A DNA stretch of 64,000 nt, taken from the NCBI GenBank assembly GCA_030426085.1, contig JAUHYW010000001.1, forward strand, positions 124,001 to 188,000. The letters run 5' to 3'. The stretch's first letter is position 1. The number at the start of each line of letters is the position of its first letter. The notes below the pieces were generated by a model that saw nothing but the letters and a program-made list of their open reading frames with translations, searched no databases and had not been told where the DNA came from. Position numbers and translations under genes: made by a program. Shown here in pieces: positions 43,077-46,260 of this stretch. The stretch comes from a bacterium. Its GTDB lineage: Bacteria > Myxococcota_A > Bradymonadia > UBA7976 > UBA1532.

Positions 43077-43805
43077 ATGCGCGCTCTCCTGATCGCCACT
43101 GTCGGTCTCCTGCCGGTCGCCGGCCGGGCCCAGCCCCCGCCACCGGCCGACGCGGCCGAGGAGGCGCCCGCCGCAGAGGTCCCCGCTGCGCCGCAGTCGA
43201 TGGGCACCCTGGTGATCGAAGCCGCCGCGGGCGTCGAGGTCCGGGTGGACGACGTCGTGATCGGTGAGACCCCGCTGCCCGGCCCGTGGACGCTCTCGCC
43301 CGGCGATCACGTCATCGAGTTGCGACCGGCGTCGGGCGAGCCCACCGTGCGCCGGGTCACGATCGCCGCCGGCCAGCAGATCGCGCTCGACCTCGGCGGC
43401 AAGAAGCCCGGCCCCGCCGCGAAGCCGGCCGCCGCGCCGGACCCCGACCCGGCCGTCGCCGAGCCCGCGCTGCCGGCCGGACCCGGCTTCCCGGTGGCCA
43501 CCGGGGGCTATATCGTCGCCGGGCTGGGGCTGCTCGGGGTCGGCGCCGGCGTCGGCCTGGGCCTGCTCGCCGATGGCTACGCCGCCGAGGCCCGCGACCT
43601 CGACCGGGCCAGCAACGACCGCGCCGACCAGCAGGCGCTGGTCGATCAGGCCGACGGCGCCGCCTTCTGGTCCAACATCTCGTACGGCGCGGGCGGGGTC
43701 ATGCTGCTCGGCGGCGCGGCGATGATCCTGCTGGCCACCGACGGCCCGCTGGGCGTCTCGGTGGCCCCCACGCCGGGCGGCGCGATGGTGGAGGGCCGTT
43801 TTTGA
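43077..43805 (+). CDS. PEGA-domain membrane protein
   Basis: 242 residues. Signal sequence (LLIATVGLLPVAGRAQ), a Pro/Ala linker, a PEGA-type beta domain (about 42-100, VEVRVDDVVIGETPLPG and SPGDHVIELRP), a second Pro/Ala linker, and two hydrophobic segments near the C-terminus (YIVAGLGLLGVGAGVGLGLL; GAGGVMLLGGAAMILLA). PEGA domains are found in surface-associated myxobacterial proteins. The stop codon abuts a 162-bp palindrome. Confidence 0.8.
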   Translation: MRALLIATVGLLPVAGRAQPPPPADAAEEAPAAEVPAAPQSMGTLVIEAAAGVEVRVDDVVIGETPLPGPWTLSPGDHVIELRPASGEPTVRRVTIAAGQQIALDLGGKKPGPAAKPAAAPDPDPAVAEPALPAGPGFPVATGGYIVAGLGLLGVGAGVGLGLLADGYAAEARDLDRASNDRADQQALVDQADGAAFWSNISYGAGGVMLLGGAAMILLATDGPLGVSVAPTPGGAMVEGRF

Positions 43806-43966
43806 GAGCTTTCCCACAAACTCCGGCGCTTCGCCCAGCACCGCCCCGAGCGCCGAGCTCGGCGTCTGTCGGCGCTCGGAATACTTCGAGTATTCCTGCG
43901 GCCTCCATCCTGGACCTCGGCGCTCGGTCCGGCACTGGGCTCGACCGTATTTCGTGGGCAAGCTCT
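43805..43966. repeat. 162-bp concentric imperfect palindrome (MITE- or REPIN-like element)
   Basis: Three inverted-repeat pairs share one centre near 43886: outer arms 43805-43820 and 43951-43966 (14 of 16 pair), middle arms 43833-43857 and 43916-43940 (21 of 25 pair), and a perfect inner hairpin GGAATACT-TCG-AGTATTCC at 43878-43896. A second smaller palindrome CGCCGAGCTCGGCG lies at 43851-43864. There is no U-run, so it is not a simple terminator. It fills the gap between the PEGA stop and the next gene. No second copy was seen here. Confidence 0.7.
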
Positions 43967-44190
43967 TGAACCGCCTGCGCCTGTCCCTGCTCGCCGGCGC
44001 CCTCGCCCTCGGCGGCGCGACCTTCGGCTGCGACCCCGACCTGCCCGGGCGGGCCTGCTCGATCGACGACGACTGCTTTCGTGACGAGCTCTGCCAGGGC
44101 ACGAGCTGCGTGCGCGGCGAGCGCGACCCCGACCCCGAACCCGACGGCGGGGCGGCCCCGGACACCGGACCCGACGCGGAGAGCGGCTGA
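43954..44190 (+). CDS. Small cysteine-containing lipoprotein
   Basis: 78 residues from the GTG at 43954, or 74 from the TTG at 43966. Signal with lipobox TFGC (C26 from GTG), then CSIDDDCFRDELCQGTSC, one unit of the DxDC...CxxGxC type, and an acidic Asp/Pro tail. The start region lies within the right arm of the palindrome, and no Shine-Dalgarno is visible, so the element may have supplied the start. It is three bases ahead of the kinase gene. Confidence 0.6.
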   Translation: MGKLLNRLRLSLLAGALALGGATFGCDPDLPGRACSIDDDCFRDELCQGTSCVRGERDPDPEPDGGAAPDTGPDAESG

Positions 44191-44193
44191 GCC

Positions 44194-46260
44194 GTGGATG
44201 CCATGGCCCCCGAACCCTTCGGCCCATACCTCCTGGCCCGCAAGATCGCCACCGGCGGCACCGCCGAGATCTTCCTCGCCCGCCGCGACGGGGCCGACGG
44301 CTTCTCCCGCCACATCGCCATCAAGCGCATCCTGCCCCAGCTCGCCGACGAGAAGGGCTTCGTGCAGCTCCTGCTCGACGAGGCCCGGCTCGCGGCCCAC
44401 CTGCACCACGGCCACATCGTGCAGATACACGACGTGGGCCAGATCGAGGGGCAGGCCTACATCGCGATGGAGTACCTGCCCGGCACCGACGTCGGGCGGC
44501 TGATGAAGCGCGCCGCCCGCCGCACCCGGCGGGTGCTGGTGGCCCACACCGACCACGAGTTCCGCAAGGCGCTGGTGCACGCGCTGCAATCGCTCGAGCG
44601 CGATCTGGAGATCGTGCCGGCCCACGACGCCGACGAGGTCGCCCGCCGCTCGGCCGACGGCCTCGTCGATCTGGCCGTCGTCGACGCCAAGCTCGCGACG
44701 CTGGTGGTCGACCGGCTGGCCTCCAACCACCCCGAGCTGCTGCGCACCGTCGTGCTGGGCAGCGCGCCCGGCCTGCGCTCGGCCTCGACGACGCTGGTCA
44801 CCTCGGACGACGACCCCCGGGTGCTCGGCGAGCTGATCGACTGCTGCCTGCGGGCGCCGATGCCGCTCGACATCGCGATGCAGATCATCCGGGCGGTGGC
44901 CGACGGCCTCGATCACGCCCACACCGCGGTGGACTACGCCGACGCGCCGCTGCACATCGTGCACCGCGACATCAACCCCAGCAACGTGCTCGTCTCGAAG
45001 AGCGGCACGGTCAAGCTGGTCGACTTCGGCATCGCCCGGGCGGCGACCACCCCCGAAGGGCGGCGCAAAGGCTTCGTCGGCACATACGACTACATGAGCC
45101 CCGAGCAGACGGCGGGCGACCCGGTCGACGCCCGCTCCGACCTGTTCTCGCTCGGCACGCTCATCCACCTGCTGATCACCGGCGAGCACCCGTACAAGGG
45201 CGATGACATGTTCGCCACCATGCGGGCCGTGCGCGAAGACCGGCCGCCGCCGCTCGACGCCCGGGTGCCGGGCACCCCGCCGCTGCTGGTCGACATCGCG
45301 ATCCGGGCCGGCGAGAAGGACCCCGCCGACCGCTACCCCTCGGCCGAAGAGATGCTCACCGACCTCGAAGAGGTCGTGCGTCGGGGGGGCATCAACCTCA
45401 GCCCCAAGCGGCTGGCGAGCTACATCCGGGCGATCTTCGGCAAAGAGGTCAAGCGCTTCGGCGTGACCACCATGAGCATGCCGGCGATCCAGATCGACGC
45501 CCAGGGCAACCCGGCCCCGGTGCACGCCCGCAAGAGCCTCGACCAGGTCGGGCGGCCGGTCGTCGACCGGGCCTCGGTCAGCGAGAAGGCTCCCATCGTG
45601 CGGGTGCCGACCAACCCCCCGCCCACCGTCGATCAGATCCGGGCGATCGGCGCCGCGCCCAGCGGCCGGCCGCCCTCGGTGCCCCCGATCCAGGCGACCG
45701 CGCCGCCCGACGCCCTCTCGTCACCGCCGAGCAGCGCGCCGCCGGTCGCTGTGGCCGACGGGCAGCCGAGCGCGCCCCGGGTCGCCGCCATCGACCCCGC
45801 CGCGGCGCGGGCCCGGATCCCGTTCACCCCGCCGGTGGGCGCCGCCTCGTCGGACGACGACGGCCCGACCCAGGTCGCCCCGCCCTCGCCCGAAATCATC
45901 GCCGCCATCGCCGCCGCGGATGGCCCGCGCAGCGCCCCGCCGCCCCGGGCCCCCGAGCCGGTCGCGATGGACGCCCCCGCCGAGCACATCGCCCGTCGGC
46001 TGGGTGCCTCGATGGGATCGGAACCCCCCCGGGCGATGCCCCCCGGGCGCCACACCGGCCCGGCCCCCATCCGGCGCACCCCGGTGGGCCAGCGGGCCTC
46101 GCTGCACTCGCTGCACTCGATCAACGCCATGGGCCCCCCGCCCAGCAGCCGCTCGGCCGCCGGTGACAGCGCGATGCGGGTCGTGCTCGGCATCGTGATC
46201 GGCGCGCTCGTCGGGCTGGCGGGCCTCTACGTGTGGTGGCGCACCGGCGCCGGCGGGTGA
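44194..46260 (+). CDS. Ser/Thr protein kinase with a receiver-like domain inserted between the lobes
   Basis: 688 residues. N-lobe: glycine loop ATGGTAEIFLARR, K44 in HIAIKRIL, E63 in the C-helix, hinge-region AMEYLPGTDVGRLMKRA (91-107). Residues about 109-221 are then inserted: RRVLVAHTDHEFRKAL, LEIVPAHDADEV, DLAVVDAKL and TVVLGSAPG, the strand order and phospho-Asp position (D164) of a response-regulator receiver, though the acidic pair is reduced. The C-lobe resumes at PLDIAMQIIRAVADGL, with HRD 257-259, NPSN and DFG (D277). A long Pro/Ala/Ser linker precedes a single C-terminal membrane helix (about 659-682), so the kinase is tail-anchored with the catalytic part in the cytosol. Start GTG 44194, or ATG 44203. 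Confidence 0.85.
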   Translation: MDAMAPEPFGPYLLARKIATGGTAEIFLARRDGADGFSRHIAIKRILPQLADEKGFVQLLLDEARLAAHLHHGHIVQIHDVGQIEGQAYIAMEYLPGTDVGRLMKRAARRTRRVLVAHTDHEFRKALVHALQSLERDLEIVPAHDADEVARRSADGLVDLAVVDAKLATLVVDRLASNHPELLRTVVLGSAPGLRSASTTLVTSDDDPRVLGELIDCCLRAPMPLDIAMQIIRAVADGLDHAHTAVDYADAPLHIVHRDINPSNVLVSKSGTVKLVDFGIARAATTPEGRRKGFVGTYDYMSPEQTAGDPVDARSDLFSLGTLIHLLITGEHPYKGDDMFATMRAVREDRPPPLDARVPGTPPLLVDIAIRAGEKDPADRYPSAEEMLTDLEEVVRRGGINLSPKRLASYIRAIFGKEVKRFGVTTMSMPAIQIDAQGNPAPVHARKSLDQVGRPVVDRASVSEKAPIVRVPTNPPPTVDQIRAIGAAPSGRPPSVPPIQATAPPDALSSPPSSAPPVAVADGQPSAPRVAAIDPAAARARIPFTPPVGAASSDDDGPTQVAPPSPEIIAAIAAADGPRSAPPPRAPEPVAMDAPAEHIARRLGASMGSEPPRAMPPGRHTGPAPIRRTPVGQRASLHSLHSINAMGPPPSSRSAAGDSAMRVVLGIVIGALVGLAGLYVWWRTGAGG

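Follow-up and report, generated by a model that had tools for sequence, protein, structure and literature searches.

Bacterial MITEs are usually regarded as scraps of one particular insertion sequence. The closest described systems are ERIC/IRU, NEMIS/Correia, RUP and YPAL, presented in parts of one review (PMC2229807) as bacterial MITEs of 100-200 bp with paired terminal repeats, stable stem-loop transcripts and target duplications, for which insertion sequence transposases have been proposed as the movers (IS630-Spn1 in the case of RUP). As treated there, each occurs in a single genus or in related groups, and most have TA termini and are A+T-rich. Part of another report (PMC3049150) describes SPRITE and BOX of the pneumococcus as interspersed structured repeats, SPRITE being terminator-like and enriched near the 3' ends of genes.

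The window analyzed here, a stretch of 64,000 nucleotides of bacterial DNA, contains a 160-bp element that resembles ERIC/IRU, NEMIS/Correia, RUP and YPAL in its size range, terminal repeats and target duplications, and that, like SPRITE and BOX, is an interspersed structured repeat. It differs from those four MITEs in being G+C-rich and phylum-wide, in having a covarying fold under differing ends, and in its family's CTAG or TTGA targets and placement at stop codons. Unlike SPRITE, it has no terminator-like site and is inserted exactly at the stop codon. The element is very probably a MITE-like DNA transposon, non-autonomous, whose structured core is strand-specific and under selection. The phylum-wide covarying core, the differing ends and the stop-codon placement set it apart from the MITEs covered in the relevant parts of PMC2229807 and PMC10969869; in the main-text portion of the latter, a 2024 review, neither "stop codon" nor "Myxococc" occurs. 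A description of the element was not found in the open-access literature on MITEs, myxobacteria and stop-codon insertion, judged by titles and the openings of abstracts.

The starting point was a sequence-only reading that singled out a 162-bp palindrome at 43805-43966, with three nested arm pairs around a common center and a perfect inner hairpin. A mechanical arm search recovered outer arms at 43805-43826/43945-43966 (22 nt, 82% complementary) and middle arms corresponding to the core stem in Table 1 (28 nt, 82% complementary), and a perfect 8-bp hairpin, GGAATACT/AGTATTCC, was read from the sequence at 43878-43885/43889-43896. The centers, at 43885.5, 43886.5 and 43887, coincide within two bases, and both the nesting and the inner hairpin are thus as described; the palindrome itself stands, with its ends corrected by one base on each side to give the element proper. 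The plus strand folds at -85.7 kcal/mol compared with -60.4 (sd 3.9) for 200 dinucleotide shuffles (z -6.55), none of which was equally good, and the minus strand of the same copy folds better still, at -107.7 kcal/mol. A known RNA family was rejected: no Rfam 15 covariance model matched window positions 43500-44300 at E<=1, and the sole match among 11 distant loci was MIR6457, at 30.1 bits against a gathering score of 140. A coding element was also rejected, since, although one frame runs open through the 162 bases, single-base indels between copies break any frame. A search for promoter-like and terminator-like sites found none.

Table 1. Features of the element and its flanks in the window.
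Feature	Position	Strand	Basis or remark
Upstream gene, 242 aa, ending in the left target copy	43077..43805	+	ORF
Left target-site copy, TTGA	43802..43805	+	TGA (43803-43805) is the stop of the upstream gene; empty site TTGA in G001, G006 and G008
Mobile element, 160 bp (GAGCTT...AAGCTC)	43806..43965	-	Minus strand gives the conserved fold
Left terminal inverted repeat GAGCTTTCCCACAAA, type A	43806..43820	+	End comparison among copies
Covarying core stem, left arm	43833..43860		Arm search and covariation
Apical hairpin GGAATACT-TCG-AGTATTCC	43878..43896		Sequence and covariation
Conserved, largely unpaired segment CGCCGAGGTCCAGGATGGAGG	43902..43922	-	Family consensus CGAGNTCAAGG
Covarying core stem, right arm	43913..43940		Arm search and covariation
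Right terminal inverted repeat, reverse complement GAGCTTGCCCACGAA	43951..43965	+	End comparison among copies
Right target-site copy, TTGA	43966..43969	+	Its TTG probably starts the downstream gene
Downstream gene, 74 aa from TTG, small, lipoprotein-like	43966..44190	+	ORF

The element is absent from the orthologous junction in three relatives, the congener G001 and genomes G006 and G008. In these empty junctions the upstream frame ends ...TTT TGA, its stop overlaps a downstream TTG start within a single TTGA, and the downstream frame can start there. The window's own genome (G000; 10.1 Mb in 178 contigs) reads TTGA-160 bp-TTGA, and therefore both the upstream stop and the downstream start are kept, the TTG of the right copy most likely being the start of the next gene. 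The reciprocal case is copy L014 of G001, which has GTGA on both sides where the G000 ortholog has a single GTGA. The empty orthologous sites therefore show that the window palindrome is a mobile element that inserted here, duplicating a 4-bp target and leaving both genes intact. Neither neighboring gene had a match in a Pfam search; the product of the downstream gene is Cys-rich with a signal-like start. Farther downstream, 44194-46260 encodes a Ser/Thr protein kinase whose Pkinase match is in two parts, of which the one at residues 223-342 is the better; the split would fit an insertion of about 120 aa between the lobes.

The dispersed copies for which the sequence-only reading had called were present: G000 has 28 segments that match the 162 bases, six of which are the reverse strands of copies themselves, the other 22 forward matches resolving into about 20 dispersed places. 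A model search listed 23 distinct places in G001. Two end types occur in these genomes, type A (GAGCTTKCCCACA, with targets TTGA, TCAA, GTGA or TGAA) and type B (GAGGCTGTAG or similar, with CTAG targets), and other genomes have other ends. Identical 4-mers flank 14/20 type A copies (4.3 with right flanks shuffled) and 7/12 type B copies (2.9 shuffled), and the corresponding counts are 6/17 in G007 (1.0), 4/29 in G012 (1.2) and 0/4 in G003 (0.2), where automatic boundary calling missed a visible CTAG/CTAG at L143. In G052 they flank 2 of 27 copies, with 1.9 expected by chance, and there most left flanks end in AG and most right flanks begin with CT; because of the low counts in G052 and G012, target duplication is not universal. 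The element behaves as a MITE would and has most of the defining features of one: short non-coding copies of 160 bp in some 20 places, terminal inverted repeats, and, except in G052, target-site duplication seen both in the flanks and at the empty sites. The earlier suggestion of a MITE- or REPIN-like mobile origin is borne out in its first half; the second does not fit, because the copies have a duplicated target site that varies.

Copies lie at stop codons far more often than the surrounding sequence would provide. One simple G+C-frame gene caller was applied to copies and background alike, the background being 464 kb of G000 (the window and 20 further stretches), in which 1275 TTGA sites comprise 1015 coding, 245 non-coding and 15 at stops. 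The duplicated site contains a stop codon in 15/20 full-length type A copies from G000 and G001 (13 at the exact position and two shifted by one), compared with 15/260 TTGA sites outside coding sequence (Fisher p 7e-13), and in 10 of the 20 an in-frame start accompanies the stop in that site; no copy falls within a called gene. The non-coding background is overstated because the gene caller misses genes, and a strong excess at stops would remain if it were halved. For type B, stops occur in 8/12 copies versus 3/16 background CTAG sites, and in a phylum sample of one locus per genome they occur in 17/23 copies, three of which are flanked by convergent genes whose stops both fall in that site. 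Orientation among stop-codon copies is 11:4 for type A, 5:3 for type B and 6:8 in the phylum sample, with three more at two stops. The excess is compatible with true targeting or with retention by selection, which these counts do not separate, and placement at this frequency offers a testable case of spread without gene breakage in a dense genome. As a separate observation, none of the 16 CTAG sites in the 464 kb falls in called coding sequence; all are non-coding or at stops.

The fold of the element covaries. In a first alignment of 38 copies, 22 of 35 pairs changed on both sides; in a broader alignment of 35 diverse copies, read on the minus strand, 56 of 62 pairs did so. The 62-pair structure, rod-like in shape, has a covariation of 0.510, compared with 0.185 for shuffled and 0.093-0.157 for slid versions, and 82.7% of its cells pair versus 62.6% when shuffled, a percentage that leans toward the structure because it was drawn from folds of the same 35 copies. 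The minus strand folds better in 79/79 copies tested, by a mean of 17 kcal/mol, and in 23/23 phylum copies, where the preference persists with DNA energy parameters (mean 9.7 kcal/mol). G-U outnumber A-C cells by 192:60 on the minus strand and by 118:68 with pairs taken from plus-strand folds, a derivation that leans the other way; since the copies are related, neither these nor the strand counts are independent. When loop letters were randomized, 16.3 of 19.7 kcal/mol of strand difference stayed, and the difference is therefore not wholly due to the loops, with the qualification that the stems in this control came from the model strand, which itself favors that strand. Unpaired bases on the minus strand are mostly A and G (675/861). 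Loop conservation above that of the stems, as expected for a protein-binding motif, was looked for and not found, the core values for unpaired and paired columns being 0.70 versus 0.69 and 0.79 versus 0.80. Compensatory pairs and strand specificity, the features expected of a functional non-coding RNA, are both present. The structured RNA also raised at the outset is thus upheld in the compensatory changes of the arms, its action as RNA being a prediction. A single copy without conserved arm pairing, the outcome named in advance as contradicting these ideas, is excluded by the copies and the covariation together.

Compensatory changes can also come from copying of one arm onto the other. A plain MITE whose interior was kept paired by mutation alone, through template switching between the arms and with no selected structure, could in this way produce the changes that we see; the element's two strands match each other at 68% identity, and its unpaired columns are no more conserved than its paired ones. 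Such arm correction would erase mismatches, yet across the phylum the internal loops hold their positions and match the stems in identity, and mutation alone predicts no strand bias, whereas every copy tested favors the one strand on which G-U exceeds A-C. We therefore regard this explanation as rather unlikely. Somewhat more room, though still a minor share, goes to a fold that acts as single-stranded DNA, the minus strand forming a hairpin during replication that is recognized as a transposition substrate. The persistence of the bias under DNA parameters, the lack of a fixed orientation to host genes and the G052 copies without target duplication would agree with it, but varying duplicated targets (GTGA/GTGA, TGAA/TGAA, TCAA/TCAA) fit a staggered double-strand cut.

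Target duplication is not known from the REPIN/REP-RAYT system. A REPIN/REP element mobilized by a RAYT (HUH) enzyme would likewise be palindromic, intergenic and dispersed with short target tetranucleotides; it was rejected on the true, varying duplications of type A copies (TTGA, TCAA, GTGA, TGAA) and is extremely improbable. The element could instead be a cis-acting mRNA element between operon genes (an attenuator, stabilizer or RNase site) kept for the benefit of the host, as ERIC and NEMIS are reported to act in the part of PMC2229807 concerned, and the location of 10/20 type A copies exactly at overlapping stop/start junctions would suit such a role. We consider it improbable, as orthologous junctions exist without the element and stop-codon copies occur in both orientations, so that either strand would be in the mRNA.

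The element family is spread over the phylum, probably Myxococcota. Model R1 matched 12/57 genomes of the class at E<=1e-3, and model R2, whose source copies came almost entirely from the class, matched 112/377 genomes at E<=1e-6 in a search that covered 377 genomes of this one phylum, the matches listed spanning model positions 1-161; against the window element its E values are 6e-38 on the minus strand and 2e-7 on the plus. A related hairpin also occurs in Sandaracinaceae contigs, which together with the lineage of that family points to Myxococcota; loci L017, L018 and L020 of MED-G138 have the apical hairpin in common and other ends, L017 being the one of the three scored with R1 (positions 37-129, E 1e-9). 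Matches in G006 and G010 and one in Lachnospiraceae were judged by eye not to be copies. The ends differ between lineages while the inner fold stays.

Distant copies frequently have ends of the form CAG[GC]..G.TGAA.AAC with CTAG on both sides, and the pattern CTAGCAGSCYGYTGAARAA is present in 34/377 genomes. In G248, G287 and G157 it brackets intervals of ~1.3-1.5 kb (L315-L317) whose transposase genes have DUF772 and DDE_Tnp_1 domains; L315 scores above the NCBIfam cut-off for IS5 (NF033581), and L316 and L317 are nearest to IS1182 (NF033551), below its cut-off. The match in ends and CTAG target between distant copies and these IS5/IS1182-type insertion sequences holds across genomes of the phylum, not within one genome, and the ends are all that is shared, the element encoding no transposase. 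For types A and B, no insertion sequence with such ends was found in G000 or G001, and the end-pattern search matched no autonomous partner. None of 17 PF01609 matches (L155-L171) carried these ends, nor did the two in G000 examined among four DUF772 matches; a DUF4096 search gave two matches.

In the MITE-like transposon that we favor, the element would depend for its movement on a transposase supplied in trans by any insertion sequence with matching ends, with IS5/IS1182-like DDE enzymes moving copies that have CAG... ends and CTAG targets. It would land on, or survive at, stop codons, where it would be harmless because the duplicated TTGA or CTAG restores the stop, as seen at two empty sites and inferred elsewhere, and in overlapping genes the duplicated site would restore the next start codon too. 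The core would be kept because one strand, more likely as RNA than as single-stranded DNA, folds in a way that helps the element itself to propagate or to be tolerated. A covarying core kept across the phylum under different ends suggests an independent parasite of insertion sequences. A bolder proposal, which we advance tentatively and think unlikely to hold in full, is a long-lived, phylum-wide mobile lineage of ~160 nt that swaps ends for successive insertion sequences, keeps its one strand-specific RNA fold and directs insertion to stops so that duplication repairs both stop and start; in such a lineage the fold may take part in choosing or tolerating sites.

Some individual copies have features of their own. 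Two type A copies of G001, L037 and L049, share the left flank GGGTTGCGGGCGTCAGCCCGCGCTAT (about 1475-1500), a second small palindromic repeat adjoining the left end of the element, and L050 and L051 (G001:C34 and C41) have a near-identical insert of ~60 bases in the apical hairpin. At L053 1317-1642 (G007:C218), two copies with different end types lie back to back in opposite orientation, separated by no more than a short target-like stretch, an arrangement that would result if one had inserted at the border of the other. At L323 2065-2247 (G297:C4) lies a further palindrome, bordered by CTAG and with arms of 47 nt, perhaps a mobile repeat of another kind in that genome.
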